Shown in pieces: positions 1-13,980 of a stretch of DNA of 28,053 nt. Source of the stretch: a virus; the IMG/VR virus record IMGVR_UViG_3300021960_000386, positions 1-28,053 of that record. The stretch is one strand, 5' to 3'. Positions within the stretch are counted from its first letter, which is position 1. Each line of letters begins with the position of its first letter. The position numbers and the translations under genes are program-made. The notes beneath the pieces were generated by a model. It saw only the letters and a list, made by a program, of their open reading frames with translations, was not told the DNA's origin and searched no databases.

Positions 1-1363
1 TAATAATCTTATGACTATTAACATCAACATCGCCTGTGCCGTTAGGGTCTAATACTAAATCACCGTTTGAGTTTGTTGTTGAAACTGTGTTGCCATCAAT
101 TGTAATGTTATCTACATCTAAAGAAGTAATACCATTTAAATCAGTTTGAGTTGCGCCTAATGATACACTATCAGAACCAATTGTGATTGATGAATTTGCT
201 AAGTGAACATTATCTACTGAACCGTCTGTAATATGTTCTGAGTCAATAGCGTCATCAGCAATCTTAGCACCAGTTATTGCATCACCAGCTATCTTTGCAC
301 TTGAAACAGAACCATCAACTAACTGAGAAGCATTAATAGTTTTGTTTGTAAGTGTTTCTGTACCAGCTAGAGTAGCAAATGAACCGTCTTGTAATGCTGT
401 ATTAAATTCAGCAGTTGTACCAGTTAATGTGCCTTCACCTAAATCTAAAGTTAATGTGTTAGATGCACTATCAATAGTTTTGTTTGTTAGTGTATCTGTT
501 GAATCTTCTGTTACAACATTTGAATCTAAGTTTACAGAAATCGTGTCACCAGTTACGGCAGTAGTAATACCAGAACCACCTGTAATTTTAAGTGTGTCTG
601 ATAATAAATTTATTGTTGCCGCTGTTGATGATTCGTCAACGATAGTTAAAGTAGTTGCAACACTAGCTGAACCGGCTGCTGTTAATCTACCTTGTTGGTC
701 TACTGTAAAGGTTGGTATAGATGTAGCAGAACCGTAAGAACCTGGAGTTACTGCTGTGTCATCTAAGTCAATTGAAATTTCATTATCTGTAACACTTGTT
801 GTAATACCTGTGTCACCTGAGAATGTAATTGTTTCACCAGTCGATACAGAATCATTTGAACCAGTATCAGCAGCTATAGAGAGAGTTTGTGTTACTGTTC
901 CAAAAGATAAGTTTCCTGAACCGTCTGTTTGTAAAAATTGACCAGAAGAACCATCGCCGTCTGGAAGAACAAATGTTGTTGTGCTTGTTACTGCATTAGG
1001 AGCTTTTAACGCAATGTAATTTGAACCGTTATTTGTTCCTTCATTTAATTTTACTGAACCGCCAACAGTTGTTGAGTTACCTATATTGAGAGTATCAATT
1101 GCTAGGTTACTATCAACTGTTAATGCTGAATTTGCTGTGAGTGTACCATCTACATGGTCTAGTTTATCTACGAAATATTGGCCACCTATTACTGTGACAT
1201 TGTTTGCAAAACCATCACCGCCGACACCACCTTCACCAATAAACAGTCTATCACCGTTATTGCCTTGGGTACCTGTTCCATATGTATAAGCAAATTCACC
1301 GAGGTATAGGTCTGACGGAGCTGAAGTATTTGCACTTCTTTTAATTTGAATAATTGTTGACAT
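1..1363 (-). CDS. Long fibre-like virion protein, N-terminal 454 codons (partial, runs off left edge)
   Basis: An open frame runs from an ATG at 1361-1363 to the window edge without a stop, so it is at least 454 residues. The start has AGGAG 9 nt upstream, overlapping the stop of the 90-aa gene. The N-terminus [20 protein letters not shown], then LGEFAYTYG and RLFIGEGG, is the typical opening of marine T4-like fibre proteins. After that come Thr/Ser/Ile-rich beta repeats, including two TLTNKTI motifs, an [20 protein letters not shown] segment (an alpha/turn linker common in fibres) and, near the edge, [14 protein letters not shown]. The receptor-binding end lies outside the window. Role inferred: fibre shaft. 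Confidence 0.9.
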
Positions 1364-1375
1364 TTATCTTAGCTC

Positions 1376-1648
1376 CTAAAAGTTTCCGCCATTGAATATA
1401 ATTGTACCTGTATTGGTCTCAATGGTCGTTTTTGTTACAAATTTATCACTAGGTGCATCATATTGCAATAAGGCGCCATCGGTAAGTGTGCTTGAATCAA
1501 CATCTGTTAAACTTCTAAGTCTGTTAGTATTTGCTACAGCCAGATTTGTGCTCGGAACTTGTACTGAAACTTGTTGTGGTCCCGCTGAAGTTGAGGAGTT
1601 GATATTTGCTCTAACTCCACCAGTTTGATTAATAACTGCTTTAACCAT
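1376..1648 (-). CDS. Small virion/fibre-associated protein (90 aa)
   Basis: The sequence starts MVKAVINQTGGVRANINSST and has a middle NTNRLRSLTDVDSSTLTDGA followed by LLQYDAPSDKFVTKTTIETN, ending TGTIIFNGGNF. The LTDVD...DGALLQYD pattern is frequent in fibre proteins of marine T4-like phages and is related to the LIYD repeats in the adhesins of this window. GAGAGAGGA lies upstream. It is directly followed by the long fibre-like gene, whose ribosome binding site overlaps its TAG stop. It probably works with that protein in a fibre or its attachment point. Confidence 0.8.
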   Translation of the reverse strand: MVKAVINQTGGVRANINSSTSAGPQQVSVQVPSTNLAVANTNRLRSLTDVDSSTLTDGALLQYDAPSDKFVTKTTIETNTGTIIFNGGNF

Positions 1649-1671
1649 TAATGGTCCTCTCTCTTTTGTAA

Positions 1672-1679
1672 TATTTATA
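1672..1679 (-). promoter_or_regulatory. T4-late-promoter-like TATAAATA before the 90-aa gene
   Basis: A perfect TATAAATA on the minus strand lies in the 53-nt gap after the 111-aa gene, 23 nt from the ATG of the 90-aa gene. A GAGAGAGGA ribosome binding region lies between. Likely drives the 90-aa gene and the long fibre-like gene. Confidence 0.6.
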
Positions 1680-1701
1680 ACGAAAATGTATTGAGGAAAG
1701 T

Positions 1702-2037
1702 CTAAACTTTTGGATTTACAGTAATAATACCTTCAATTACTCTGGTAACTGAGCTATCGGATGTCTTTGTAATGTAAACATCATAGACATATCGTGCCGG
1801 AGCATCTAAAGCTGTTGTTTGAGTATCTGTTAAAGATAAAGAAATGACACCTGTTGTAGTGTCACTAGCAATTGTTGTGGTAATCGTTGTAGATGAAGAA
1901 GAACCGTAGGCATCTGCCATAGCCGCTGATGCTGTATAACCTGCTAAATCAACGGCATCACCGTCTGAATTTGTAACAGTTACATCTGAAGTAAATGTTG
2001 CCCCTTGGTCTATTCTAAGATTTGCTACTGCTGCCAT
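1702..2037 (-). CDS. Virion structural protein with BppU-like beta domain (111 aa)
   Basis: The protein begins AVANLRIDQGATFTSDVTVT and continues DGDAVDLAGYTASAAMADAY, with TTGVISLSLTDTQTTALDAP and RYVYDVYITKTSDSSVTRVI later. This order (dynamic QG start, DLxGYTaxaamr-type strand, and a YDVYIT-IxGxITVxP end) resembles the N-terminal Ig-like domain of phage baseplate upper proteins (BppU type) and small virion proteins of marine T4-likes. It should be a single beta-sandwich. AGAAGG lies upstream of the ATG, inside the 3' end of the overlapping 74-aa gene. Role inferred: a tail or fibre-attachment component. Confidence 0.8.
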   Translation of the reverse strand: MAAVANLRIDQGATFTSDVTVTNSDGDAVDLAGYTASAAMADAYGSSSSTTITTTIASDTTTGVISLSLTDTQTTALDAPARYVYDVYITKTSDSSVTRVIEGIITVNPKV

Positions 2038-2239
2038 TGAATTGTTTTATACCTTCTGCAATTTTTTCGTTGTAGTAATTTGTTAATACATCAATCTTTT
2101 CCAATTCAATTTCATGTCGCACTTTAGATGTTTGTAATTCTTGTCTGGCCGCAATAGTATTTCTAAGGGCTAACGGAAGAACATCTAAATCATAATCTTT
2201 TCCGTCAATAGATATAACATTCTTTGGTTGTTCACTCAT
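2015..2239 (-). CDS. Small phage protein with an N-terminal IDGKDYDLD motif (74 aa)
   Basis: The chosen start is the ATG of MSEQPKNVISIDGKDYDLDV, with AGGAGA upstream. The short beta-type motif ISIDGKDYDLDVLP is followed by a helix with coiled-coil character (NTIAARQELQTSKVRHEIEL, then NYYNEKIAEGIKQF). This layout recalls the small DUF6447-like proteins common in marine T4-like phages; I recall the pattern but could not confirm the match. The end overlaps the next gene by 23 nt in another frame, which suggests translational coupling with that structural gene. Function is unknown; a small tail or assembly protein is possible. Confidence 0.7.
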   Translation of the reverse strand: MSEQPKNVISIDGKDYDLDVLPLALRNTIAARQELQTSKVRHEIELEKIDVLTNYYNEKIAEGIKQFNGSSSKS

Positions 2240-2243
2240 AATT

Positions 2244-2249
2244 TCTCCT
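2244..2249 (-). promoter_or_regulatory. Ribosome binding site fixing the start of the 74-aa gene
   Basis: AGGAGA lies just before the ATG at 2237-2239. An upstream in-frame TTG at 2252-2254 would put this site inside the gene, so the ATG is preferred. Confidence 0.65.
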
Positions 2250-2256
2250 GTCAAAC

Positions 2257-2264
2257 TATTTATC
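2257..2264 (-). promoter_or_regulatory. GATAAATA late-promoter-like site before the 74-aa gene
   Basis: GATAAATA on the minus strand overlaps the stop of the 94-aa gene and lies 17 nt before the next ATG. An AGGAGA lies between. It is one base away from the T4 late octamer, with spacing similar to the other sites. Confidence 0.35.
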
Positions 2265-2544
2265 CGTTTTCATTCAGTCTTTTGACAACAATATCGTGTT
2301 CTTCTAAAACCCGCCAAGTGGCTCCTCTATAACTGTGTATTTGGGTACCAATATTGTCTTCACTAGGATAAGTAGATAAAACTTCATTAATATTTATTGT
2401 TAAAGGTTTGCCTAAGTAAGGTTGCACACTACTGTTTTCTAATATTGAACCATTTGTAAATGTTTTAAATATACCTTTTGATTTTGTAATTTTTAGAGTT
2501 TTTAAATTATTCAAATCCACTTTATTTTTAGTTTCTTTTTCCAT
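2260..2544 (-). CDS. Unrecognised 94-aa protein after the oxygenase array
   Basis: Not recognised. The N-terminus is Lys/Asn-rich (MEKETKNKVDLNNLKTLKIT), followed by a mixed alpha/beta pattern: GIFKTFTNGSILENSSVQPY, LTININEVLSTYPSEDN, then IHSYRGATWRVLEEHDIVVK. There are no metal-binding clusters, signal peptide or membrane segments. A strong AAGGAG lies before the ATG and overlaps the end of the preceding oxygenase gene, so it is likely expressed with that block. Its function is open. Confidence 0.75.
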   Translation of the reverse strand: MEKETKNKVDLNNLKTLKITKSKGIFKTFTNGSILENSSVQPYLGKPLTININEVLSTYPSEDNIGTQIHSYRGATWRVLEEHDIVVKRLNENG

Positions 2545-2545
2545 A

Positions 2546-3187
2546 CTATCTCCTTATTTTTAAATAGTCTATTTGAGATTTTTTTGATAATAACTCTCCC
2601 TCAATATGAAAGTTAAATGCCATAGAGTATCTATCCATATCCGATATGTTGGCTTTTATACCGTGTAATAGAGAAGACGGAAATAAAATTATCATACCAT
2701 TTTTTGGTTCTAAAGAGTACAAATTACAATTATCTATAGTCAATTCAGAAAAAGGTAAATTACAAGATACTGGAAAAATAGGCCTATGATTTGTCGGAGA
2801 CTCAAAAATTATATTACCAGATTTTTCATTTGTTCGTAAATATAATACACCACTTATTAAACTATTTGCATGAAAGTGACTTTGCCCCCAATCGCCTTTT
2901 TCATGTTTATTAACCCAACTATTTTGTAAGTACCATTCTAAATGAGTATCATCCACTTTTAAAAAGTTTTTAGTGTATAATTCTAAATTATACATAATTT
3001 CTTTTTTCAACTCTTTAAATTGTTCCTTATCTAAAATGTATTTGTCTTTTGTTAGTTTACCATTTTCAGATTCCATTAATTCATAATCAGTATTGTATAA
3101 TTCTTCTAAATTGTATTTTTCCAAATCTATAAAATTTTGAAATACTGGAGTAGGAAATAAATTATATACTTTAAATTCTCTATTCAT
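2546..3187 (-). CDS. Putative 2OG-Fe(II) oxygenase with an HxH motif (213 aa)
   Basis: It opens with the VYNLFPTPVFQNF segment typical of the TIGR02466/2OG-FeII_Oxy_5 putative oxygenases. The core has LQNSWVNKHEKGDWGQSHFH followed by ANSLISGVLYLRTNEKSGNI, then PKNGMIILFPSSLLHGIKAN and DMDRYSMAFNFHI. Metal ligands would be H104, H106 and H175, and R186 is in the 2OG-binding position. Like the 235-aa protein it has HxH rather than HxD/E, which may be normal for this subgroup. It is the last gene of the oxygenase run. The next gene starts 1 nt after its stop-side boundary, with an AAGGAG inside its 3' end. Confidence 0.85.
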   Translation of the reverse strand: MNREFKVYNLFPTPVFQNFIDLEKYNLEELYNTDYELMESENGKLTKDKYILDKEQFKELKKEIMYNLELYTKNFLKVDDTHLEWYLQNSWVNKHEKGDWGQSHFHANSLISGVLYLRTNEKSGNIIFESPTNHRPIFPVSCNLPFSELTIDNCNLYSLEPKNGMIILFPSSLLHGIKANISDMDRYSMAFNFHIEGELLSKKSQIDYLKIRR

Positions 3188-3189
3188 TT

Positions 3190-3840
3190 TTATTTACCAT
3201 CAGGTATAGAATAATAGAAATGTGTTATTGTCCATCTGCCGTGTCCGAAAGGCATTTTTTGTTTCATTTTTATAGGCGTTACGGAGTGTAAATATGGGCA
3301 AGGAAAAAATATAGCTCTATTATGTTTACAATTAACAGTCACATTTGGTTCTTTAAATACAAAATCGCCACCTATAAACTTTTTTGGTGTTTTGTAAAAC
3401 CATACTAATTGCGTCCATTGAAATGTATCATAATGGTCGTCATAATAGTCTTCTTCTTCATAATAAGAAACCATATTAGAGTTTTTATTAGAACTCTCAA
3501 AACTTCTAAAATAAGGGTCACAAAATTTTAATTCATTTTGAAATTCATTACTTCTTACTTTGTATAATGTATTTTCAATTGGAAATCTAGGATAATGTTT
3601 ATCACTATAATACTCAGAAGTATACCATCTATAAGATTTTCCTCTAGCATTACCTTCTTTATCTCTTGCGACAATAGTATCTTCAGCCCTATCAATATCT
3701 TTTAGATGAGAATATAAATTCAATTCAGACCAAATAGCCTTTTCTTCTTCTGGTGTGTACCAATTATCAACTATCAGAAAAGGAAATTTTGGATTTTCCT
3801 CGAATTTTGTAAACTTCCAATACTGTTCAATTTCTAACAT
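3190..3840 (-). CDS. 2-oxoglutarate/Fe(II) dioxygenase, prolyl-hydroxylase type (216 aa)
   Basis: Start chosen at the ATG of MLEIEQYW, which has AGGA 8 nt upstream; a TTG 18 nt earlier is less likely. The N-terminal half includes FPFLIVDNWYTPEEEKAIWS, a common opening of this family. The catalytic core has MVSYYEEEDYYDDHYDTFQW with H136-Y-D138, then VWFYKTPKKFIGGDFVFKEP, and RAIFFPCPYLHSVTPIKM with distal H185. R202 (GHGRWTITHFYYS) is later than the usual +10 position because of an inserted Lys/Met-rich loop (KMKQKMPFGHG). All triad residues are present. The gene lies 2 nt before the next oxygenase and is cytoplasmic by sequence. The substrate is unknown. Confidence 0.88.
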   Translation of the reverse strand: MLEIEQYWKFTKFEENPKFPFLIVDNWYTPEEEKAIWSELNLYSHLKDIDRAEDTIVARDKEGNARGKSYRWYTSEYYSDKHYPRFPIENTLYKVRSNEFQNELKFCDPYFRSFESSNKNSNMVSYYEEEDYYDDHYDTFQWTQLVWFYKTPKKFIGGDFVFKEPNVTVNCKHNRAIFFPCPYLHSVTPIKMKQKMPFGHGRWTITHFYYSIPDGK

Positions 3841-3848
3841 TATATTAT

Positions 3849-3852
3849 TCCT
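3849..3852 (-). promoter_or_regulatory. Ribosome binding site fixing the start of the 216-aa oxygenase
   Basis: AGGA lies 8 nt before the ATG at 3838-3840. An upstream in-frame TTG at 3856-3858 would place this AGGA inside the coding region, so the ATG is the better start. Confidence 0.6.
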
Positions 3853-3858
3853 AATCAA

Positions 3859-4707
3859 TTAATCAATAACATATTTTTTTGTACCTGAAGTATCAATTTC
3901 TTGTATTGATGTTTCGTGGTTTTTTTCAGCATTATCAATAATATCTTCATCTCTAAATGAAGCAGGCAATCCTAATAAAGGTCTTCCGTCAAACATAATA
4001 TTATATTGGCCTGATTTTTCATTATAGTGCATAAAAAGTTGAGCATGATTTAATCCCATAAAAGGTTCTCTCCAATGTTCAACAATGTCTCCTCTATAAA
4101 TTAACATATCGCCAGGTTTCATGTGAATGGGCAGACCTGCTGTATCTTTTGTACCATCTTTAGGTCCTACAAACATAGGCCAATCCCAATCTGGATATTT
4201 CTTTTCATCTACATTTGAATTGTCGTAACCTAAACACAATGTTGTCGAAATCTCACAACTTGGTCTGTCTTTATGTCTTTTTAATTCTGTGCCTGTTGTA
4301 TAAAGTCTATGATATGTGTAAGTAGGAATTAATTCTTTACCTGTTAACTCATTCATTTTTTCTAACGATATACTCAACAAAGCGTCAAAAATAGGTTCAC
4401 CGTATTTACTAAAGTCGCCAGGAGCTTGTTTATCATTAAAAGTACCCCATACATCTGCATCATATTCAACACCTTGTTCTTCAAAGAAAGCCAATCTTGT
4501 GGATTCTAACTGTACATGATGATACAATAAATTGGCCATTTCAGTTGATAAAAATTTTTCAATTTTAACCCAACCATTTTCTTCAAAAAATTTAGCTGCA
4601 GGATGTACCACAGCAGGATTTAATCCAGTTTGACCCTTTAATAAAGACATAGCATCATTTTTCTGTTCTTCAGTTAAAGCGTCCCAATTTGCAATTTTAT
4701 TTTCCAT
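3859..4707 (-). CDS. 2OG-Fe(II) oxygenase-like protein without the usual 2OG arginine (282 aa)
   Basis: The longest oxygenase in the array. A helical N-terminal region (1-70) includes HPAAKFFEENGWVKIEKFLS. The core has YHRLYTTGTELKRHKDRPSC with H145-K-D147, then EISTTLCLGYD, and IHMKPGDMLIYRGDIVEHWR with distal H211. The residue ten after H211 is H221 and the next candidate is Q223 (NHAQLFMHYN); no Arg or Lys is present there. R213 is nearby but out of register. The iron site therefore looks intact while the co-substrate pocket is atypical. The C-terminal 50 residues are polar and extra to the core. An AGGAG precedes the ATG. Confidence 0.83.
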   Translation of the reverse strand: MENKIANWDALTEEQKNDAMSLLKGQTGLNPAVVHPAAKFFEENGWVKIEKFLSTEMANLLYHHVQLESTRLAFFEEQGVEYDADVWGTFNDKQAPGDFSKYGEPIFDALLSISLEKMNELTGKELIPTYTYHRLYTTGTELKRHKDRPSCEISTTLCLGYDNSNVDEKKYPDWDWPMFVGPKDGTKDTAGLPIHMKPGDMLIYRGDIVEHWREPFMGLNHAQLFMHYNEKSGQYNIMFDGRPLLGLPASFRDEDIIDNAEKNHETSIQEIDTSGTKKYVID

Positions 4708-4719
4708 TATAACTCCTAA

Positions 4720-5496
4720 CTATTTAAATGGTTTACCTAACGCCCATAATACTAATGAATATCTTGTTCCTTTAGTAACAGGTGTAACTTGATGATATAC
4801 AAATGATGGAAATATAATAATTGAACCTTGTGGTCTAATTTCAGTACATTCATGGAATCTTTTTCCTGAAGCATGAGGACCAAAGTCAAATTTTAAATTT
4901 CCTCCTTCATATTCACCTGGTTTATTTAGATTGATTGTCATTGACAATTTTCTTACTTTACCTACGAAATTTGGATTTTCAGAATATCCCGTAGGTAATC
5001 TACCTTTTTCGTCCTTTTTATGAACGCCAGGTATAAATCTTTTATATTTACCCTCGTGGTCACTATTACCATCAGCGTGCCAGCCATAAAATTGATTTAA
5101 ACCGTATTTTGTAAATTGAAATGATTCAGCACTATCGAATTCGTAATGCCATCCTGATGATTTATTTGCTTTGTGTAGAAACGGCCAAACTAAATCGTAT
5201 AACCATTGAGGATTCATCCAGGCAATTTCACTATCTCTAATAAATGTACCTTTTTGTATATCATTTGTAGCAATGCCTTTTTCATCTCTTAATTCTTCAT
5301 ATGTAACATCAGCCATTGGCTTAGAGTTTTCATCTATATCACCTTGTTTATGATTGTACCCCATTGTAGTGGCATTGGTTTCGCCACCTTTTTGTTTTGT
5401 TTCGTTGATTATATTTTCTCCCAAGTCAATAATTTTTTGACACATTTCTGGGGTCAATGCGTTTTGAAAGAAAAAATAAGAATTTTTAAGTAACAT
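4720..5496 (-). CDS. 2-oxoglutarate/Fe(II) dioxygenase, PKHD/prolyl 4-hydroxylase type (258 aa)
   Basis: This is the most canonical oxygenase of the array. The N-terminus has FFQNALTPEMCQKIIDLGE. The catalytic fold shows FTKYGLNQFYGWHADGN with H140-A-D142, then RKLSMTINLNKPGEYEGGNL, and GSIIIFPSFVYHQVTPVTKG with distal H235 and R245 (GTRYSLVLWALG). This layout matches the prolyl 4-hydroxylase/PKHD-type hydroxylases, which hydroxylate peptidyl proline in several systems (family knowledge). Here the substrate is unknown. The ATG has AGGAGT 8 nt upstream. It lies 12 nt before the next oxygenase gene, which starts behind its own AGGAG. Confidence 0.92.
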   Translation of the reverse strand: MLLKNSYFFFQNALTPEMCQKIIDLGENIINETKQKGGETNATTMGYNHKQGDIDENSKPMADVTYEELRDEKGIATNDIQKGTFIRDSEIAWMNPQWLYDLVWPFLHKANKSSGWHYEFDSAESFQFTKYGLNQFYGWHADGNSDHEGKYKRFIPGVHKKDEKGRLPTGYSENPNFVGKVRKLSMTINLNKPGEYEGGNLKFDFGPHASGKRFHECTEIRPQGSIIIFPSFVYHQVTPVTKGTRYSLVLWALGKPFK

Positions 5497-5515
5497 TATA
5501 TAATACTCCTATCAT

Positions 5516-6223
5516 CTATTTATCTTGCTCCCACACCATAGAATAATTACCAGATATGCTAACTCTAGTATCATCTGTCCAAAATGGATTAACACTATGT
5601 TGTAAATAAGACGGGAATATAAACATTAATCTTTCATAAGGTTTAACTCTAAATTCTGAACCATGTAGTGAATTTGGAAAAGATTCACCAAAAGCAAATA
5701 TAATTTCGCCTGGATGATTTGTATTTGATATTACATACGACTTATCAAATATTCTTTGAGGCACTTTTGTAAATATAACAAAAGATATATTTCCTGTGTG
5801 GGTATGTCTTGGATTAAAATCTCCAGCTTTTTGATAATTTATCCATAGAGATTCTAATGTTAATCCGCTAGTTTTAGAATTAAGAACATTTGGGGTTAAG
5901 AACTTTTCAATATAATCTTGGCCATATTTTTCAGCTATATTATCTAAATAGTCATTAACATAAGGAGTTAATTTTTTTGATATAAACTTTGCATATTCTT
6001 TATTGTAAAAAAAACTATTACCTGTTTTCATATTGCCAGCTAAATTTCTTCTAAAATCATTTTTCTCAACATTTAATTTATCGCCTTCTTCATTTAAAGA
6101 ATTAACAATGTCTTGTGAAACTTCTGTTTGATAAATTGGAGGACCAAAAGGTTTAATAATTTTAGAACCACTTGAACAAGTTTTGTGTATAGCGTTAGTA
6201 TCAAATGTATTATTAATCATCAT
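5516..6223 (-). CDS. Putative 2OG-Fe(II) oxygenase with an HxH motif (235 aa)
   Basis: The pattern fits the putative 2OG-FeII_Oxy_5 type family: an N-terminal segment with KPFGPPIYQTEV, then LESLWINYQKAGDFNPRHTHTGNI, HPGEIIFAFGE, and YERLMFIFPSYLQHSVNPF. The metal residues would be H140, H142 and H209. R220 (DDTRVSISGNY) is in the 2OG-binding position. The normal HxD/E carboxylate is replaced by His, as in the 213-aa protein later in the array, which may alter metal chemistry. Two ATGs open the frame (MM); AAGG lies 10 nt before the first. Enzyme assignment is good at fold level and uncertain for activity. Confidence 0.8.
   Translation of the reverse strand: MMINNTFDTNAIHKTCSSGSKIIKPFGPPIYQTEVSQDIVNSLNEEGDKLNVEKNDFRRNLAGNMKTGNSFFYNKEYAKFISKKLTPYVNDYLDNIAEKYGQDYIEKFLTPNVLNSKTSGLTLESLWINYQKAGDFNPRHTHTGNISFVIFTKVPQRIFDKSYVISNTNHPGEIIFAFGESFPNSLHGSEFRVKPYERLMFIFPSYLQHSVNPFWTDDTRVSISGNYSMVWEQDK
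5517..5524 (-). promoter_or_regulatory. GATAAATA motif before the 258-aa oxygenase gene
   Basis: GATAAATA lies 20 nt before the ATG of the 258-aa gene, with AGGAGT between. It overlaps the terminal Asp-Lys-stop codons of the 235-aa gene, as at 11565-11572, so the match may be partly coding coincidence. Confidence 0.3.
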
Positions 6224-6235
6224 ATAATTTTTACC

Positions 6236-6442
6236 TTATTTTGAGTGTTTTTTCAATTCTTTTATCATATTTGTTTTAGTTAATCTTTTGTCTAATTCTA
6301 TACCGACTTTTCTACCAACCTTTTCAATTTCATTTTTTGTTTTCTTTTCTAAAGATTTGATTTGTTCTTTTGTAATTTGTTCTTTTGATTCTACAATGAA
6401 TAAGTCAGTAATGAATTTTTTAATTTTATTAATTAGTTTCAT
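6236..6442 (-). CDS. Small basic helical protein inside the oxygenase array (68 aa)
   Basis: Not recognised. The first 16 residues (MKLINKIKKFITDLFI) form an amphipathic, Lys- and Ile-rich helix that could lie on a membrane. The rest is a highly charged helix (EQITKEQIKSLEKKTKNEIE) with coiled-coil character and a basic tail. It has a strong AAGGAG upstream of its ATG and is the only non-oxygenase gene in this block. It has no Cys, no His cluster and no enzymatic motif. It could be an adaptor or a small membrane-associated phage protein; nothing in the sequence decides. Confidence 0.7.
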   Translation of the reverse strand: MKLINKIKKFITDLFIVESKEQITKEQIKSLEKKTKNEIEKVGRKVGIELDKRLTKTNMIKELKKHSK

Positions 6443-6458
6443 AATTTTCTCCTTATAA

Positions 6459-7025
6459 TTATTTATTAGACTTTTTAAAGTTAATCCATCCTGTAATTAT
6501 CATCTTTTCATGTGTATCTGATATAATACCTCTATGTAAATGTGTAAACCCAGCTGGCCATATTATAGTATCGCCCTTAATACACTCAGTTGTTACATTT
6601 TGGTTTGGAAAATAAGTTCCTGCATTAGGAGTATTTGTTAAATAAGTCATAAAAACTAATTCTCTACTTCTAGTTTCAAATTCCATTCTCTCAGAATGTA
6701 ATTTTTTAAAGCCACCACCAATTGGATATTTTTGAATGTTTGTGCCTTCTAATATACTCAATGGACCATACTTACCTGCATCTGTTGGAATGTGTTTTTT
6801 CAAATACATTTTTGTCATTGCATATAAATTTGTATAATATTGTTGTATATATTTTTGTTCGTCAAACTCTATTCGTATTTCTTTTGATACTTTAGTATTG
6901 GTATCAACCTTTTGGTCTGAACTTATACAACCATCTATAGCATTACTTTCATTTTTTTGATATAAGTCAATAATTTCATCACACACACTCAAAGGCATTT
7001 CATATTTTTCAATAAATGTTTCCAT
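6459..7025 (-). CDS. 2-oxoglutarate/Fe(II) dioxygenase with an HxE motif (188 aa)
   Basis: The core reads FKKLHSERMEFETRSRELVF, then YLTNTPNAGTYFP and GDTIIWPAGFTHLHRG. H110-S-E112 replaces the usual HxD; Glu is an accepted variant in this superfamily. The distal His is H162 or H164. K174 (HEKMIITGW) is where the 2OG-binding Arg normally lies; Lys fills this role in animal collagen prolyl 4-hydroxylase (established). Length is typical of a minimal single-domain enzyme. It starts 1 nt after the previous stop (TAACATG), so the first two oxygenases are probably co-translated. The substrate is unknown, though the fold assignment is fairly secure. Confidence 0.82.
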   Translation of the reverse strand: METFIEKYEMPLSVCDEIIDLYQKNESNAIDGCISSDQKVDTNTKVSKEIRIEFDEQKYIQQYYTNLYAMTKMYLKKHIPTDAGKYGPLSILEGTNIQKYPIGGGFKKLHSERMEFETRSRELVFMTYLTNTPNAGTYFPNQNVTTECIKGDTIIWPAGFTHLHRGIISDTHEKMIITGWINFKKSNK

Positions 7026-7026
7026 G

Positions 7027-7614
7027 TTAACTCACATTATAATTTATAATACATCTTAAATTATTTTCTGGTTGACAAGCTGTATGCCAATAATAACCAT
7101 CAAATATAACAACACGGCCTTTTTTTGGTGTTATTCTTTGTTTTTCAACAAGTTCTGATATATGAGGTACTTTTTTACCGTCTTCAAAATTATTTTCGTA
7201 AATGACTGTATCGCCGTCACTATCTAAAACATAATAAAGTATTACCAAATGTCTAAAATCAGTAATATCTAAATGTGGACTATCGACAATATGTCTATCT
7301 TTAATGTTTAGGGGTAATTGGAAAAAGGCTCTTCCTTGGTGTATCTTAGAATATTGATAACCAATTTTTTTACAAGAATTTTTGATAATGGGTATTAAAG
7401 GTTCATGCCAATCGCTGTTGTCATTACCGTTTTTACTTACAAAATAATGTGAAAATCCTGGTCGTTTTTGTACATTATTTTTGATATACGAAACATCTGT
7501 ATTAAAAAACCAAGGAAAATTTAAACTAAGAAAAGTGTTTTGAATATCATCTTGTAATTTAACATCAATAATATCATCAAATACCCATACTTTTTTACGA
7601 AAAAACTCACTCAT
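7027..7614 (-). CDS. 2-oxoglutarate/Fe(II) dioxygenase, prolyl-hydroxylase type (195 aa)
   Basis: First gene of a seven-member oxygenase array. It has the complete facial triad of the 2OG-Fe(II) family: H114-L-D116 in SPHLDITDFRHL, and distal H177 in FDGYYWHTACQP. R187 (NNLRCIINYNV), ten residues later, is placed to bind the 2-oxoglutarate carboxylate. The double-stranded beta-helix strands around these (LVILYYVLDSDGDTVIYEN and GRVVIFDG) are clear. Such enzymes couple 2-oxoglutarate decarboxylation to hydroxylation of a substrate, often a protein side chain. No signal peptide is seen, so it should be cytoplasmic. There is no good Shine-Dalgarno. The substrate is unknown. Confidence 0.88.
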   Translation of the reverse strand: MSEFFRKKVWVFDDIIDVKLQDDIQNTFLSLNFPWFFNTDVSYIKNNVQKRPGFSHYFVSKNGNDNSDWHEPLIPIIKNSCKKIGYQYSKIHQGRAFFQLPLNIKDRHIVDSPHLDITDFRHLVILYYVLDSDGDTVIYENNFEDGKKVPHISELVEKQRITPKKGRVVIFDGYYWHTACQPENNLRCIINYNVS

Positions 7615-7634
7615 TTTTATAATATAAACCTCAA

Positions 7635-7653
7635 TCTTAGTTTTAAACTAAGA
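7635..7653. repeat. Perfect 9-bp inverted repeat between adhesin and oxygenase blocks
   Basis: TCTTAGTTT, one base, then AAACTAAGA forms an AT-rich hairpin 4 nt after the stop of the 526-aa adhesin gene, in the 43-nt gap before the first oxygenase gene. No U-run follows it on the minus strand, so it is not a classic intrinsic terminator. It may stabilise mRNA ends or mark a processing site, or be chance in AT-rich DNA. Confidence 0.35.
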
Positions 7654-7657
7654 ATAT

Positions 7658-9238
7658 TTAGTATTTGACAATGACGATACCTTTACCGCCATTACCGCCG
7701 CCAATGACATTGCCTTGTGAAGCGCCACAGCCTCCGCCGCCGCCTCCTCTATTTGCTTCACCATTACTGCCACCAGAACCCATAGTTCCTGAAGCAGCAC
7801 CGCCGCCTTGGCCGCCTGGTCCTGGACTTCCATCATTACCTGCAATTGCATTTTGTCCGCCTGAACCGCCACCACCTGCGTAGTAAGTAGATGTTCCTGA
7901 AATATTGTATGCTTTACCAATACCGCCTGCTCTACTTGGTCCTGGACCGCCGTTGTTTCCGGCTGCACCAGCGCCGCCACCTGAACCTGATGGTGTGCCT
8001 GGATTGCCACCTGTTGCACCTGAATTACCGAATCCGTATGTACCTGAATCGCCTGGTTGTGTTGGTTGAGTTCCACTAGGTTGTGGAGCAGCAGGTGTAT
8101 CTCCGCTTCCCCAACCGGCAGTACCACCGCCTGAGCCTCCATTTAGACCCTTATTACCGGCGTAACCGTCTGGATGGTCAGGAGAGGTGACACTTCCAGC
8201 ACCTCCGCCACCACCACCTTTAGCAGTTAGTGTACCAAATACTGAATCTTGTCCTAAGTTTGTAGGACCTGGATGGGATGTGTCAGCGCCAACAAAACCT
8301 TGACCTCCACTACCTACTGTAACTGAAACTGTTCCGCCTGGAGTTACCGGGAATGCTGGTCTAAAGATAAGACCTCCTGCACCGCCGCCACCGCCTGCAA
8401 CTGCGTTGGTATTTGAACCGCCACCTGAACCACCACCTGCAACGACTAATACATCAACAGATGTGACACCTGCTGGTACACTAAATGTACCAGATGATGT
8501 AAATGATTCTACTACTATAGCAGTAATAGTAATACTAAATGCTCTATCACTTGTGTTTGAATTAACATCAGTAGCTCTGATTGTAAAATTTGAAGTTGTG
8601 TTTGAAACTGGTTCTGTTGGTGTTCCAGAAATAACATATCCTGAACTTGTAGAAGTACCAGACAATCCTGCTGGTAGAGAACCACTTTCTAAAGTATATG
8701 TGATGTCGCCGCCGGATTCTGGATCCGCAGCTGCAATAGTAATATCTGACCAACTCCCGGAACTTGCTGAATATAAACTTCCAGCAGAAGTCGAAAATAC
8801 AGGTTGTCCATCAATTGTTAATGCGTCTGCTAATGTTCCTGCAAGACCAGATGAGTTAACAATTTTAATATCAAATGGTTCATTTGCGTTTGTTAAATTT
8901 GCTGTATTTTTTGCAACAACTAAAGTAACTTGTGTTGCACTATCTCTTGTAGTCGTATCAGGAGAAATTTCTACACCACCGTCTGTAATAATTTTAGCAG
9001 TTACACTTGTTGAGAAACCTGAACCTGTAACTACGATTGTATAGTTTCCTGTGCTATCGCCAGATAAAACATCAGAAGGTGAAATACTTGAAACAGCTGG
9101 TGGAGCGTCAATAGATTTCCATGCCGTACCATCATAATACTCCAACAAATTTGTTGTGGTATTAAATCTTAAATGTCCTTGTTCTTCAATACTTCTTTCG
9201 TTTGTAGAACCAGTTGATATACCTTTTCTTTTTGCCAT
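7658..9238 (-). CDS. Tail-fibre adhesin paralogue with TIG-like, He_PIG-like and polyglycine domains (526 aa)
   Basis: This is the third paralogue. Its N-terminus (1-47) is different and contains GHLRFNTTTNLLEYYDGTAW, a short module seen in phage and bacterial surface proteins. After it come a TIG/IPT-like domain beginning VSSISPSDVLSGDSTGNY (about 49-144), a He_PIG-like Ig domain with AAADPESGGDITYTLESGSL and GYVISGTPTE (about 145-240), and a polyglycine domain from SFTSSGTFSVPAG to GGKGIVIVKY. The last part has NGGPGPSRAGG, GNDGSPGPGG and the shared QPTQPGDSGTYGFG. It ends the adhesin block; the next gene starts the oxygenase array. AGGA lies just before the ATG. Confidence 0.9.
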   Translation of the reverse strand: MAKRKGISTGSTNERSIEEQGHLRFNTTTNLLEYYDGTAWKSIDAPPAVSSISPSDVLSGDSTGNYTIVVTGSGFSTSVTAKIITDGGVEISPDTTTRDSATQVTLVVAKNTANLTNANEPFDIKIVNSSGLAGTLADALTIDGQPVFSTSAGSLYSASSGSWSDITIAAADPESGGDITYTLESGSLPAGLSGTSTSSGYVISGTPTEPVSNTTSNFTIRATDVNSNTSDRAFSITITAIVVESFTSSGTFSVPAGVTSVDVLVVAGGGSGGGSNTNAVAGGGGGAGGLIFRPAFPVTPGGTVSVTVGSGGQGFVGADTSHPGPTNLGQDSVFGTLTAKGGGGGGAGSVTSPDHPDGYAGNKGLNGGSGGGTAGWGSGDTPAAPQPSGTQPTQPGDSGTYGFGNSGATGGNPGTPSGSGGGAGAAGNNGGPGPSRAGGIGKAYNISGTSTYYAGGGGSGGQNAIAGNDGSPGPGGQGGGAASGTMGSGGSNGEANRGGGGGGCGASQGNVIGGGNGGKGIVIVKY

Positions 9239-9243
9239 AATCC

Positions 9244-9251
9244 TATTTATC
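9244..9251 (-). promoter_or_regulatory. GATAAATA motif before the 526-aa adhesin gene
   Basis: GATAAATA lies on the minus strand in the 17-nt gap after the 198-aa gene. It is only 5 nt from the ATG and abuts the AGGA ribosome binding site. This is too close for a leadered transcript of that gene, so promoter function is doubtful despite the match. Confidence 0.2.
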
Positions 9252-9255
9252 TACC

Positions 9256-9852
9256 TTATGCCGGCAGCTCCCTAATATCAATTTTATCGTTGGCTGAAGG
9301 AGCCGTTGTTAGTGTCAAAGTTGTACCTGAAACTGTATAGTCTGTTCCTGGTAATAATACTAAACCTTCGTTCATTACTAATAAATTATCTTCTGATACA
9401 CCACTTGAAACTGTGAAAGTTGTTGTTGAACCGTCACCTGTATAATCTCTTTGTGTTGTGGCCTTGACAATATTACTTGTTTCAATCCACTTAACTTGTT
9501 GTGCTGATAAATCATACACTAAAAATCTGTCGTCTGAGGCCGCTCTTGCAGCTAATTCTGTAAAAGAAGTAAATGATGCTTGACCTACTACAGCGCCATC
9601 ATATGCAATTCCTAAGTAAATTAAAAATACATTTTCACTTGCACCAGGAGCTTCTGTGAATACGATTTGTGTACCGCCACTTCCTAGTGTATATGCTGAG
9701 TTAGGTTCCTGAAGTACACCAGCAACGGAAATTAAAATTGAACTTGTAGAAGCAACTGTATAATCTAAAGTGAAAGTAGTCGTACTACCATCAGCAGTCA
9801 ATGACTGTCTTTCAAATGCTCCGTATGTTGGTTCTCTTCCTAAATATGCCAT
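9256..9852 (-). CDS. Tail-fibre structural protein with two TGDGST beta modules (198 aa)
   Basis: The protein opens MAYLGREPTYGAFERQSLTA. It carries two similar beta modules, TADGSTTTFTLDYTVASTSS (about 18-81) and TGDGSTTTFTVSSGVSEDNL (about 136-197). Each ends in a (D/A)YTxxG...TxxTxAP pattern. The same module forms the N-terminus of the 657-aa adhesin. Between them is one LVYDLSAQQVKWIE repeat related to the LIYD repeats of the neighbouring adhesins. A TTAGGA precedes the ATG. It probably acts as a fibre shaft, base or connector. It carries no glycine-rich tip, so alone it may not bind receptor. Confidence 0.85.
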   Translation of the reverse strand: MAYLGREPTYGAFERQSLTADGSTTTFTLDYTVASTSSILISVAGVLQEPNSAYTLGSGGTQIVFTEAPGASENVFLIYLGIAYDGAVVGQASFTSFTELAARAASDDRFLVYDLSAQQVKWIETSNIVKATTQRDYTGDGSTTTFTVSSGVSEDNLLVMNEGLVLLPGTDYTVSGTTLTLTTAPSANDKIDIRELPA

Positions 9853-9862
9853 TTAATCTTTC

Positions 9863-11545
9863 CTAATATTGTACGATTACAATTCCCTTACCACCATCGC
9901 CGCCGTCATCAGAATTTGGTCCTGAGGTTGAACCTCCTCCGCCACCGCCGCCACGGTTAGCCGTGCCTGGTTCGCCTGTTCCACCAGCTGTAGGATGTCC
10001 ATCACCGCCGCCTCCTTGGCCGCCTACTGCAAAACCTTGGAAACCAGTTTCGCCTGAACCTCCGCCGCCGCCGGCATAATAAACACTTGTGCCTGAAATA
10101 TTGTATGCTTTACCGATACCGCCGTCGCCACATGTACTAGCACCTGGACTTCCAGGTTCACCAGCTGCGCCACCGCCACCGCCTCCGCCGCCTACATAAC
10201 CAGCAGGACCACTATTACCATCACCACCATTAGTTCCAAATCCGTATGTGCCTGAATCTCCTGGTTGAGTTGGTTGAATACCTTGGCCAATTTTGCCAGT
10301 AAGTCCAGATTCTCCTCTAGCACCACCACCTGAACCACCTGGAGCTCCAGGTTGTGTCATACCTCGGCCGCCTGAACCACCGCCGCCACCTTTGGCAGTC
10401 AATGTTCCAAATACTGAGTCACTACCAACTGTAGCAGGATTATTTACAGCATTTTGAGCTAGGTCATATCCACCACCTGATGCACCATTACCTACTGTGA
10501 CTGTAACTGTTCCTCCTGGAGTTACCGGGAATGCTGGTCTGTAAATTAGACCGCCAGAACCACCGCCTCCACCACCAGAACCTCCACCGCCGCCGCCACC
10601 GGCAACGACTAGAACATTTACTGAAGTTAACCCACTTGGTACTGAGAAAGTACCTGAAGATGTAAATGAATCAGTTACTGGTGCTTTAATTGTAATAGAA
10701 AATTCTCTATCAGCTGTGTTTGAATTAACATCAGCAGCTCTGATTGTAAATGTAGATGTAGTATCTGAACCTACGGCACTTGGTGTGCCAGAAATTACAT
10801 AACCTGAACTTTGTGATGCACCTGACATACCTGCTGGCAATGAACCTGTTTCTAAAGTATATGTGATGTCGCCACCTGATTCGGGGTCAGCTGCAGCTGC
10901 TGTATAAGTAGCACCTGAGGCTCTAGCTGCATCAAAAACTGTGGCCAAAGAACCTGATGCTGTTGACCAGGCTGGCTGAGCGTCAATTGTAATTTGTTGA
11001 TTTAATGATGATTGTAAACCAGAACCAGCAGTAACTCTAACACCAAAACTTTCATCTTCATTTGATAAACTTGATTTTGCAATTGTACCTGTAATCTGCG
11101 TATCTGAATCTATAGTTTGACTATCAAAAGAAACTTCTGTAGCATTATCTGATTTTATTAATTTTGCTGTTGCACCTGTAAAACCTGAACCTGTAATGAC
11201 AATAGTATAGTTACCTGTGCCGTCACCAGATGTTAAATTGGTTGGTGATACACTTGAAATTGTAGGGAAGTTTAAGAAATTTGTTTGAGTAACTTTTTTA
11301 AGAACACCAGCAGATGTATCGTAAATTAAAATTTGGTCTCCTGTAGCTGCCCCTTCTCCTAAGGCAGTTTTATTTGTAATAATACCAGGACCTACAACAT
11401 TTTGTGATTCGATAGCTTTTAAACTGTCATCGCTAGCATCATAAATTAAAAACTCATCCGTATCCGCAGCTTCTGAGCCTAGATTCGTTTGGTCTTTAAT
11501 TGAGCCTTTGTCTAACCCGCCTTTACCTACTCTTGTTAATGCCAT
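9863..11545 (-). CDS. Tail-fibre adhesin paralogue with TIG-like, He_PIG-like and polyglycine domains (560 aa)
   Basis: This is the second member of the adhesin family. It has a short N-terminus (MALTRVGKGGLDKGSIKDQT), two LIYD repeats (EFLIYDASDDSLKAIESQNV near 31-50, QILIYDTSAGVLKKVTQ near 71-87), a TIG/IPT-like domain beginning ISSVSPTNLTSGDGTGNY (about 95), a He_PIG-like Ig domain with AAADPESGGDITYTLETGSL, and a glycine-rich C-terminal domain from SFTSSGTFSVPSG to GGKGIVIVQY. The polyglycine domain contains QPTQPGDSGTYGFG and YNISGTSVYYAGGGGG, also present in its paralogues. The sequence between glycine runs differs, as expected for receptor-contacting loops. It lacks the TGDGST fibre module of the 657-aa protein. 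Confidence 0.9.
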   Translation of the reverse strand: MALTRVGKGGLDKGSIKDQTNLGSEAADTDEFLIYDASDDSLKAIESQNVVGPGIITNKTALGEGAATGDQILIYDTSAGVLKKVTQTNFLNFPTISSVSPTNLTSGDGTGNYTIVITGSGFTGATAKLIKSDNATEVSFDSQTIDSDTQITGTIAKSSLSNEDESFGVRVTAGSGLQSSLNQQITIDAQPAWSTASGSLATVFDAARASGATYTAAAADPESGGDITYTLETGSLPAGMSGASQSSGYVISGTPSAVGSDTTSTFTIRAADVNSNTADREFSITIKAPVTDSFTSSGTFSVPSGLTSVNVLVVAGGGGGGGSGGGGGGSGGLIYRPAFPVTPGGTVTVTVGNGASGGGYDLAQNAVNNPATVGSDSVFGTLTAKGGGGGSGGRGMTQPGAPGGSGGGARGESGLTGKIGQGIQPTQPGDSGTYGFGTNGGDGNSGPAGYVGGGGGGGGAAGEPGSPGASTCGDGGIGKAYNISGTSVYYAGGGGGSGETGFQGFAVGGQGGGGDGHPTAGGTGEPGTANRGGGGGGGSTSGPNSDDGGDGGKGIVIVQY

Positions 11546-11563
11546 TTTGTTCTCTCTTTATTA

Positions 11564-11965
11564 CTATTTATCTTCTGCCTTTGGTAAACTAGCAATTTTC
11601 TTAGCCAGTCTATTAACAAAATCATCTAAGTAATCAAGGTCAGCAGAAAATCCGATATGTGGTATTCTTATTTTATTACCCTCACTATCGGTTGTTTGTC
11701 TAAACCCTTGCATTGATTGACCAAGTCTTTCGTCTTTTGTCAATTGATGCCATACTGTATCTTCGACTTTCATCATTGGTACTGTTACCAATTGAAATCT
11801 CTCTTTTATTTCAGCTACGACCATATTTGTTGGAATTCCTGGTCTTTGCTCTAACAAATTTATAACTTCTTCTACTACCGACTTATCTCTATCAGTAATA
11901 TCGCCGTAGTCAAATAAAGGTTCAATATCTTTATCAGCTTCTACATTCGATTTAATTTTACTCAT
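11564..11965 (-). CDS. Unrecognised 133-aa soluble helical protein
   Basis: I do not recognise this protein. It is charged and mostly helical, unlike its beta-rich, Gly/Thr-rich neighbours: EVINLLEQRPGIPTNMVVAE near residues 33-52, DTVWHQLTKDERLGQSMQGF (about 69-88), then HIGFSADLDYLDDFVNRLAK towards the C-terminus. A good AAGGAG lies upstream of the ATG. It sits between two polyglycine adhesin genes. An accessory or assembly role, such as a fibre chaperone, is a possibility suggested only by position and composition. It could equally be an unrelated inserted gene. Confidence 0.8.
   Translation of the reverse strand: MSKIKSNVEADKDIEPLFDYGDITDRDKSVVEEVINLLEQRPGIPTNMVVAEIKERFQLVTVPMMKVEDTVWHQLTKDERLGQSMQGFRQTTDSEGNKIRIPHIGFSADLDYLDDFVNRLAKKIASLPKAEDK
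11565..11572 (-). promoter_or_regulatory. GATAAATA late-promoter-like site before the 560-aa adhesin gene
   Basis: The octamer differs from TATAAATA at the first base and lies 19 nt before the next ATG, with AGAGAG between. It overlaps the Asp-Lys-stop codons (GATAAATAG) of the 133-aa gene, so part of the match is explained by coding sequence. Confidence 0.35.
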
Positions 11966-12006
11966 TGTATATTCACTCCTTAGTTTGAATAATTAATTAA
12001 TTATAT

Positions 12007-13980
12007 TTAGTATGAAACAATTACAATTCCTTTACCGCCTGAGCCGGCAAGTCCTGGTCCTGGAGATTGATTATCTCCGCCGCCGCCACCGCCGCCTCTA
12101 TTAGCCGTACCTGATTGTGCATTACCGCTACTTTGTTGATTACCATTACCGCCGCCGCCGTTTCCGCCGGTGCCACCACCTTGTGCTGCTGGTTGAGCGT
12201 CTTCTCCTCCACCGCCGCCGCCGGCATAATAAACACTTGTGCCTGAAATATTGTATGCTTTACCTACACCACCATCTCCGCCTAATGTGGGTGACCCCTG
12301 TCTGGATTCACCAGCTGCACCTGCACCACCGCCGCCGCCTGCTGGGTCAGCATTACTATTCGAACCTTGGCCACCTGGATTACCGAATCCGTATGTGCCT
12401 GAATCTCCTGGTTGAGTTGGTTGTGTAGCTGTACCATGTGAGTTGTTAGGATAACCACCAGCACGGCCTCCACCTGAACCTCCTGGAGAACCTTGATTTG
12501 GTCCTGCATCACCAGTGTTGAAAGCTCCGCCTGAACCACCGCCTTTAGCCGTTAATGTGCCAAATACTGTATCTTGTCCATTACTTACTTGAGTACCTGC
12601 TGAATTACTAGCTGTGGAACCATCGCCTACTGTGACTGTAACTGTTCCTCCTGGAGTTACTGAGAATGCTGGTCTATAGATAAGACCACCTGCACCTCCG
12701 CCACCTCCGCCTTGTTGGTCACCGTATCCGCCAGCACCACCACCACCGACAACTAACACATCAACGGTCGTAAGTCCACTCGGTACGCTAAATGTTCCAG
12801 ATGATGTAAATGATTCAACTGTAGGAGCATTAACAGTAATACTAAATGCTCTATCACTTGTGTTTGAATTAACATCAGCTGCTCGAATTGTGAAATTAGA
12901 TGTAGTATTTGAAACTACAGCAGTAGCTGTGCCAGAAATTACATAACCTGAACTTGTGGATGAACCAGATAATCCTGCTGGTAGAGAACCACTTTCTAAA
13001 GTATAAACTACATCGCCGCCTGATTCGGGGTCAGCAGCTGCCATTGTGAAAGATACTCCACTTCTAGCAGAATCAAAAACACCACCTAAGCTGCCTGATG
13101 CTGTTGACCATATTGGTTGAGAATCTATATCAATTTGTCCTGTTAATGATGATTGTAAACCTGTAGCTGCGGTAACTCTAACACCATAAGGTGTGTTTGC
13201 TTCTGTTAATGAAGATTTTGCAATAACTAAAGTAATTTGCGTATCTGAATCAACTGTAGAAGTGTCTGCACTTACTGGAGCCCCTCCTGTTGTTACAAAT
13301 GAACCTGTTGCGCCAGTAAAACCTGTACCTGTAATGACAATAGTATAGTTACCTGTTCCATCACCGGATGATAAACTTGTAGGACTAACGGATGAAATAC
13401 TAGGAAAGTTTAATAAATTTGTTTGAGTAACTTTTTTAAGAACACCAGCAGATGTATCGTAAATAAGAATTAAATCGTCTATAGCCGCACCTGCTCCTAG
13501 AGCATCTTTGCCTGTAATAAGTGTTTCATTCGGTGTAACATTTGCTGCTTGAATTTTTTTAAGAGAACCTGTAGAAGCATCATGGATTAAATATGTGTCT
13601 GTATCAGCAGCCTGTTCCGCCAATTCAACTTGGCCTGTGATTGCGTCAACATTTAATTTACCAGATGTAATAGCATTATCGGCAACGGAAGAAAATTCGC
13701 CTTGTACTGTACCTGGATTTAAGATAACAATTGCATGACCATTTGTTGGTGCGCTTGTGAAAGTAACTCTTTTGTATTCGTTTGAACCATCTACACCTAA
13801 TGTATAATCATCACCAGGAATTTGTCGAACATCATTTACGAATACTTGTAAATCATTTTGGCCTGCTTCAGCCATAGCAAATTGCATATCAAAAGCGACT
13901 GTAGAACCATCACCTGTAAAAGTGTCTTTGTCGGTAAATGTTCTAAAAGCTGTACCTGGTTTATTTGCAATATAAGGCAT
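12007..13980 (-). CDS. Tail-fibre adhesin with TIG-like, He_PIG-like and polyglycine domains (657 aa)
   Basis: Domains in order: an N-terminal fibre module (about 20-90) with TGDGSTVAF and DDYTLG, shared with the 198-aa protein downstream; two LIHD/LIYDTSAGVLKKV repeats (about 120-190); a TIG/IPT-like Ig domain beginning ISSVSPTSLSSGDGTGNY (about 192-290); a He_PIG-like Ig domain with AAADPESGGDVVYTLESGSL and GYVISGTA (about 291-390); and a glycine-rich C-terminal domain (about 393-657) starting SFTSSGTFSVPSG and ending GGKGIVIVSY. The last type of domain is found in receptor-binding tips such as the Gly-rich adhesin gp38 of phage S16. The protein is the first and longest of three paralogues here. 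Role inferred: host recognition at the fibre tip. Confidence 0.9.
   Translation of the reverse strand: MPYIANKPGTAFRTFTDKDTFTGDGSTVAFDMQFAMAEAGQNDLQVFVNDVRQIPGDDYTLGVDGSNEYKRVTFTSAPTNGHAIVILNPGTVQGEFSSVADNAITSGKLNVDAITGQVELAEQAADTDTYLIHDASTGSLKKIQAANVTPNETLITGKDALGAGAAIDDLILIYDTSAGVLKKVTQTNLLNFPSISSVSPTSLSSGDGTGNYTIVITGTGFTGATGSFVTTGGAPVSADTSTVDSDTQITLVIAKSSLTEANTPYGVRVTAATGLQSSLTGQIDIDSQPIWSTASGSLGGVFDSARSGVSFTMAAADPESGGDVVYTLESGSLPAGLSGSSTSSGYVISGTATAVVSNTTSNFTIRAADVNSNTSDRAFSITVNAPTVESFTSSGTFSVPSGLTTVDVLVVGGGGAGGYGDQQGGGGGGAGGLIYRPAFSVTPGGTVTVTVGDGSTASNSAGTQVSNGQDTVFGTLTAKGGGSGGAFNTGDAGPNQGSPGGSGGGRAGGYPNNSHGTATQPTQPGDSGTYGFGNPGGQGSNSNADPAGGGGGAGAAGESRQGSPTLGGDGGVGKAYNISGTSVYYAGGGGGGEDAQPAAQGGGTGGNGGGGNGNQQSSGNAQSGTANRGGGGGGGDNQSPGPGLAGSGGKGIVIVSY

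Follow-up and report, generated by a model that had tools for sequence, protein, structure and literature searches.

Few unexplained genes of ocean phages are as common as those for oxygenases dependent on 2-oxoglutarate (2OG) and Fe(II). A genome can hold up to 24 of them, the number given for S-SCSM1 (PMC9602691), and published hypotheses place them in host metabolism. Several isolates carry them in runs: at least nine lie between a giant tail fibre and gp13 in cyanophage S-RSM4, runs of five and six are present in the pelagiphages HTVC008M and Mosig EXVC030M (a Pelagibacter phage), and cyanophage S-SM1 has a further run; the published accounts that we found of these four arrays propose no function from the neighbouring fibres. 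Here, we analysed a window (the whole stretch of viral DNA studied, 28,053 nucleotides, IMG/VR record IMGVR_UViG_3300021960_000386) in which seven such genes, numbered O1 to O7 from position 7614 down to 2546, lie in one run beside genes for glycine-rich (Gly-rich) tail fibres (Table 1). An earlier note on this DNA had taken only single or paired oxygenases to be known in marine T4-like phages and had considered the density of the array exceptional. Neither claim holds in view of the above isolates and of runs of 5–8 oxygenase genes in at least 15 newly fetched marine loci, a count that, like all loci, runs and proline comparisons from IMG/VR below, was made among the matches listed. Arrays of this kind were already known, though poorly understood, and the novelty lies elsewhere. 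What appears to be new is the enzyme–substrate link: we give a probability of about 0.5 to the array being a late tail-fibre hydroxylation cassette, in which O4 (with O5) hydroxylates prolines of the Gly-rich fibres. On prolyl hydroxylation of tail fibres in phages, we found only brief speculation in the literature (PMC9301287).

In isolates, Gly-rich segments near O4/O5 contain more proline than those of phages lacking O5 or carrying it at a distance. With this prediction and its thresholds fixed before the IMG/VR data, we scanned IMG/VR for O5 relatives and, separately and ignoring oxygenases, for a DNA motif of the Gly-rich C terminus. Among the matches listed, Gly-rich fibre open reading frames (ORFs) with O4/O5 within 8 kb showed a median proline content of 6.8% (n=30), compared to 2.9% in those without (n=57, p=3.5e-12), and proline reached at least 4.5% in 30/30 of the former and 5/57 of the latter. 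Restricting the comparison to the exact domain motif gave 23/23 versus 2/29 at the same threshold. The contrast persists on contigs below 40% guanine-cytosine (GC) content (7.0% proline with O4/O5 versus 3.3% without), and the background proline of other ORFs is about equal (4.3 versus 4.1%), so GC content does not explain the difference. Contexts of the prolines, including NTPPVSPPQG, TGPGT and GNPGG, revealed no single simple motif. Among five apparent exceptions, a collagen-repeat protein (L242) and a tape-measure-like protein (L304) lack the Gly_rich_2 domain and two more, from locus L271, have a PF13640 oxygenase nearby; the fifth is weighed below. Where O4 is present and no O5 was found nearby, the fibres are rich in proline (6.7%, n=10). 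Six fibres have O5 with O4 not found: three contain 1.6–2.0% proline, each beside a PF13759-type enzyme, and the other three, on one short contig (L281), contain 4.7–6.7%. This weakly suggests that O4 rather than O5 matters for proline, numbers being small and contig ends possibly hiding genes.

The same Gly-rich neighbour is found in Mosig, HTVC008M, the podoviruses HTVC023P and HTVC033P, S-SM1, S-RSM4, Bellamy and S-RIM50, and in S-MbCM6 the O4-O5 pair directly follows a 38%-Gly fibre annotated as ‘sericin-like’. Searches of whole records placed O5 1.8–11 kb (midpoint distance) from a Gly_rich_2 domain in nine of the ten records having both, a closeness that spans Pelagibacter podo- and myoviruses as well as cyanomyoviruses. 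When O5 was placed at random in these ten records, the observed closeness was reached in 4/20,000 trials, a figure that is optimistic because the records are related. Other 2OG genes of the same records also lie near the domain (36/91 within 8 kb versus 10.2 expected). Presence alone gave a weak association (Gly-rich gene versus O5, 10/12 versus 4/10 in 22 records), and the signal is carried by distance and proline content. O4 and O5 are themselves adjacent in most of the first 36 loci, with exceptions including L039; in S-RSM4, S-SM1 and HTVC008M, the two are separated by further genes of the run. Separately, HTVC023P encodes a proline-poor Gly-rich protein just upstream of a PF13759-type oxygenase (gp70-gp71, L042:12338-13951), apart from the four Gly-rich genes, all rich in proline, that lie upstream of O4, and similar pairs occur in L159, L207 and L211.

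Profile and structure comparisons assign all seven array proteins to the 2OG-Fe(II) oxygenase type, with predicted activity. Four exceed the curated Pfam cut-off and two fall below it, and O5 has no usable match: its sole 2OG-related hit is Ofd1_CTDD (0.086), Pfam searches with every member of the O5 family returned neither 2OG nor ferrochelatase families, and a PDB profile search returned nothing significant. Fold prediction was therefore needed for O5, and O1 likewise called for a model. The AlphaFold2 (AF2) model of O5 (predicted local distance difference test score, pLDDT, 82.7; 24 sequences) matches prolyl hydroxylases in the PDB (E 5e-9, probability 1.00), among them the Pseudomonas prolyl 4-hydroxylase (P4H) 4j25, the P4H-EF-Tu complex 4iw3 and PHD2 at about 1e-8. 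The O1 model (pLDDT 85.2) likewise matches PDB prolyl hydroxylases (E 6e-8, probability 1.00, Foldseek); its top 50 matches are 2OG oxygenases throughout, mostly prolyl hydroxylases, led by PHD2 and Dictyostelium enzymes. The sequence of O4 matches the PKHD-type hydroxylases 3dkq, 9ghl and 9qn1, so that the nearest solved relatives of the pair are prolyl hydroxylases or PKHD enzymes, for O4 by sequence and for O5 by fold.

Metal ligands were examined in family alignments, for which profile searches were run over three rounds on the ORFs of 36 related IMG/VR loci and of the Mosig and HTVC008M loci. Invariant residues are H114-D116-H177-R187 in O1 (28/28), H110-E112 plus H162 and H164 in O2 (14/14), H140-x-H142 and H209 in O3 (63/63), H140-D142-H235-R245 in O4 (40/40), H145-D147-H211 in O5 (40/40), H136-D138-H185 in O6 (23/23) and H104-x-H106 and H175 in O7 (63/63). 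The earlier note had seen a 2OG metal site and a jelly-roll in every protein, which is borne out in that the families conserve their ligands and profiles or folds agree, and needs amending for the sites, since only O1, O2, O4, O5 and O6 have an H-x-D/E...H triad, with H-x-E in O2 in place of the canonical H-x-D, and O3 and O7 have H-x-H...H instead. A 2OG-binding Arg/Lys is expected about 10–12 residues past the distal His; it is represented by the invariant R187 of O1 and R245 of O4, and by an Arg at +11 in O3 and O7 of the window. The jelly-roll (double-stranded beta-helix) assignment comes from AF2 and Foldseek for O1 and O5, from Pfam matches over the cut-off for O3, O4, O6 and O7, and from a profile below the cut-off for O2. 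Only O3 and O7 are clearly alike (28% over 180 aa), so the array is not a recent tandem duplication, in line with the earlier note, and all seven genes are under purifying selection (ratio of nonsynonymous to synonymous substitution rates, dN/dS, 0.05–0.40 against the related loci L006 and L009).

We propose O4 and O5 as a prolyl hydroxylase because O5 and O1 have P4H-type predicted folds, O4 matches PKHD enzymes and fibre proline tracks O4/O5; the PKHD/P4H group to which O4 would belong includes hydroxylases of peptidyl proline. In this scheme, the array would be expressed late and its seven enzymes would modify the phage's own tail fibres post-translationally, with O4, assisted by its frequent partner O5, hydroxylating prolines in the Gly-rich domains of the adjoining fibres (7658-13980) before or during assembly. 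Such Gly-rich domains are expected to fold into polyglycine-II-like helices, whose geometry is shared with polyproline II, and in collagen such helices are stabilised by hydroxyproline. The fibre domains are probably poly-Gly/poly-Pro-II-like, and hydroxylation may make them more stable, by analogy with collagen, or adjust receptor binding. From their position, O1, O2, O3, O6 and O7 might hydroxylate further residues, in these fibres or in adjacent ones. A broader idea, which we hold only tentatively, is that marine phages decorate their adhesins with several enzymes, O4/O5 supplying hydroxyproline to collagen-like, Gly-rich fibre domains and the other oxygenases further side-chain changes that affect stability or receptor recognition. 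One locus, L271:4567-8849 (IMG/VR 3300018428_000044), combines Gly-rich fibre genes with genes for a radical SAM protein that weakly matches a B12-binding domain, for an oxygenase of PF13640, for a Trp halogenase and for a DUF6445/2OG-like protein; it may be a more extensive set for modifying fibres and, as a single case, fits fibre decoration. If this broader idea is correct, phages would widely share an equivalent of collagen modification that wrong annotations have concealed. An adjoining substrate with a compositional signature would recast these oxygenases as virion-modifying enzymes and give a reason for their number.

Several findings weigh against this proposal. Beyond its distal His, O5 lacks an Arg/Lys where 2OG is usually bound, and may therefore be atypical or inactive. 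One true Gly-rich fibre (L267:3166-5115) contains 6% proline with no oxygenase found within 8 kb, the sole clean exception. Relatives in L028-L038 have O4-O5 elsewhere in the genome, and the DNA fetched for them contains no Gly-rich gene; in S-SCSM1, 31 kb separate O4-O5 from the Gly-rich gene, which is proline-poor. Proline is not the only residue to differ, an idea rejected by a test of all 20 residues: the raw comparison also shows lower Leu, Trp and Tyr and higher Cys near O4/O5, so clade composition contributes. Finally, gp38 of Salmonella phage S16 is reportedly a polyglycine adhesin, a Gly-rich protein of the fibre tip, and a search of the S16 record gave no 2OG match, so Gly-rich domains can function without hydroxylation.

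Protein modification nevertheless remains the explanation that fits best, and to that extent the dedicated modification pathway suggested in the earlier note survives. A doubtful but serious competitor is auxiliary metabolism, with the oxygenases acting on host small molecules or on 2OG/nitrogen signalling (NtcA) and the fibre region serving as a hot spot for cargo, as has been proposed for cyanophages (PMC3037559; PMC9602691). Many 2OG genes are indeed dispersed across these genomes, and in Mosig further redox genes adjoin the fibres; metabolism, however, leaves the O4/O5-linked fibre proline unexplained. To our knowledge, the NtcA context of cyanobacteria is absent for SAR11 phages, which also counts against it.

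The folds themselves raise the prospect that the enzymes hydroxylate proteins of the host (ribosomal proteins, EF-Tu or surface receptors), since the best match of O5 is a Pseudomonas putida P4H solved with EF-Tu, the bacterial example of such a target, and the best matches of O1 are PHD2 and Dictyostelium hydroxylases. Such targets would account neither for the closeness and compositional link to fibre genes nor for the position of the array among late structural genes, and we consider it improbable that they are the main ones.

Equally improbable in our judgement is a coincidence of clade history, in which a few O4/O5 lineages happen to have proline-rich Gly-rich fibres and no functional link exists, even though the shifts in other residues would agree with it and most of the adjacent loci fall within a single large set of linked contigs. 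Clustering with oxygenase genes as links had put nearly all positives in one family, and was replaced by contig families grouped by shared non-oxygenase proteins. At this level, ten separate families with O4/O5 near (5.6–9.1% proline) and nineteen without (0.5–4.5%) do not overlap (p=1.5e-5), and proline is the most significant of the 20 residues. The contrast also persists inside one large mixed family (7.1% near O4/O5 versus 2.6% without), and Kyanoviridae isolates separate completely (7 versus 5, p=0.0025, exploratory).

Modification or repair of DNA or nucleotides, suggested by PHROGs names and by the weak similarity of an S-RSM4 relative to PF09859, is extremely improbable, as phrog_2297 and phrog_274 members have 2OG profiles or fold and the window proteins lack AlkB or TET/JBP Pfam matches. 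The names themselves appear to be wrong: phrog_2954, phrog_3531, phrog_274 and phrog_2297, called ‘ferrochelatase’ or ‘DNA endonuclease (V)’, are 2OG-oxygenase-like families by our comparisons. O5 (phrog_2954) is named ‘ferrochelatase’, yet 0/26 family members match a ferrochelatase Pfam family at E<=1 and the predicted fold is P4H-like; the phrog_2954 profile had no match in 14 control genomes. O1 (phrog_274) is named ‘DNA endonuclease V’, which we reject in view of its AF2 fold matches to 2OG oxygenases and its invariant HxD...H...R. For phrog_2297 (‘DNA endonuclease’), the S-RSM4 member exceeds the PF13640 cut-off, and the name of phrog_3531 likewise appears wrong, judging from cross-matches alone. 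By comparison, phrog_61 and phrog_81 both carry the name ‘2OG-Fe(II) oxygenase’. Many arrays have escaped notice because their members are labelled ferrochelatase or DNA endonuclease. Every ferrochelatase-encoding phage in one study had an adjacent 2OG oxygenase (PMC9599517), and phrog2954 and phrog61 were jointly enriched in seasonal viruses (PMC11561400). Correcting the names matters, since the ‘ferrochelatase’ label has already entered ecological conclusions on iron and heme metabolism.

The ORFs of the array were confirmed, interrupted only by a 68-aa gene (S), and their placement in a late structural region stands; the same strand bears T4-like baseplate genes and tail-fibre genes. Given these genes, and Mosig as the closest isolate by O4 protein (55% identity, with HTVC008M and cyanomyoviruses more distant), the window is from a T4-like marine myovirus, probably of SAR11; megablast of window positions 1-12000 against phage records gave no match. 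The small protein S is highly conserved, and lies inside the oxygenase run in relatives but among fibre genes in Mosig; it may therefore be part of the fibre set and not of the array.

Table 1 Features of the window. AF2, AlphaFold2 model.
Feature	Position	Strand	Remarks
Tail-fibre protein (context)	2..1363	-	downstream of array, truncated by contig end
O7, oxygenase-type, H-x-H variant	2546..3187	-	213 aa; phrog_81; PF13759 over curated cut-off
O6, oxygenase	3190..3840	-	216 aa; phrog_61; PF13640 over curated cut-off
O5, P4H-fold protein	3859..4707	-	282 aa; phrog_2954; AF2 fold; frequent O4 neighbour
O4, PKHD/P4H-like oxygenase	4720..5496	-	258 aa; phrog_61; PF13640 over curated cut-off
O3, oxygenase-type, H-x-H variant	5516..6223	-	235 aa; phrog_81; PF13759 over curated cut-off
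S, small basic protein	6236..6442	-	68 aa; conserved; not an oxygenase
O2, 2OG-Fe(II) oxygenase-type, H-x-E variant	6459..7025	-	188 aa; phrog_61; Pfam below cut-off (2.8e-4)
O1, 2OG-Fe(II) oxygenase-type	7027..7614	-	195 aa; phrog_274; Pfam below cut-off (2.8e-5); invariant metal site; AF2/Foldseek
Gly-rich tail-fibre protein, proposed substrate	7658..9238	-	PF21722; directly upstream of array; segment 35% Gly, 6.9% Pro
Tail-fibre N-terminal/T7-tail-like protein (context)	9256..9852	-	between Gly-rich genes
Second Gly-rich tail-fibre paralogue, proposed substrate	9863..11545	-	PF21722; segment 5.8% Pro
Third Gly-rich tail-fibre paralogue, proposed substrate	12007..13980	-	PF21722; segment 5.5% Pro
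DUF4815 protein	15133-21228	-	same strand as array
Baseplate-wedge match	22741-25341	-	same strand as array
gp6-like baseplate gene	25353-27221	-	same strand as array

Relatives of the array also carry other oxidative and halogenase genes. Two tandem, different Trp halogenase genes lie on a marine T4-like contig that also has an O4-O5 pair (L038:11254-14254), and HTVC008M has a Trp halogenase and a 2OG oxygenase between its large and small terminase genes (L005:10525-12484). In Mosig, a second oxidative cluster beside the fibres (L004:1-6035) comprises two Asp/Asn-hydroxylase-like genes, TauD, a fatty-acid desaturase, an aminotransferase, FMN reductase, peroxiredoxin, methylase and acetyltransferase. 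The S-RSM4 oxygenase run contains an uncharacterised protein with weak 4Fe-4S matches (L044:15179-15880, S-RSM4_134, phrog_33749).

Among known systems, S16 gp38 resembles the present fibres as a Gly-rich fibre protein, and differs in that its phage record lacks a PF21722 match as well as 2OG genes. The cellular PKHD-type PiuC/YbiX group is matched by the O4 sequence, but its enzymes are iron-linked, with another substrate and context. The viral collagen prolyl hydroxylase of Paramecium bursaria Chlorella virus-1 (vCPH) shares the fold class, as does animal collagen P4H, and the O1 model matches vCPH (5c5t). Like the proposed O4/O5, vCPH is encoded by a virus and has been suggested to act on proline of viral protein; it is, in contrast, a single enzyme of a eukaryotic virus with activity according to the literature, compared to a phage array known from its genes. 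In HTVC023P-type pelagiphages, the O4/O5 families likewise adjoin Gly-rich genes, although the partner of O4 was taken as a heme-iron chelatase (PMC9599517), whereas our model of it has a P4H-type fold. The arrays of S-RSM4, S-SM1, Mosig and HTVC008M differ from the window in gene order and number, and in having several members labelled ferrochelatase, DNA endonuclease or hypothetical. They are composed of the same families, again as one run next to tail-fibre or neck genes, and each of the four includes members of O4 and O5, which are neighbours in Mosig.

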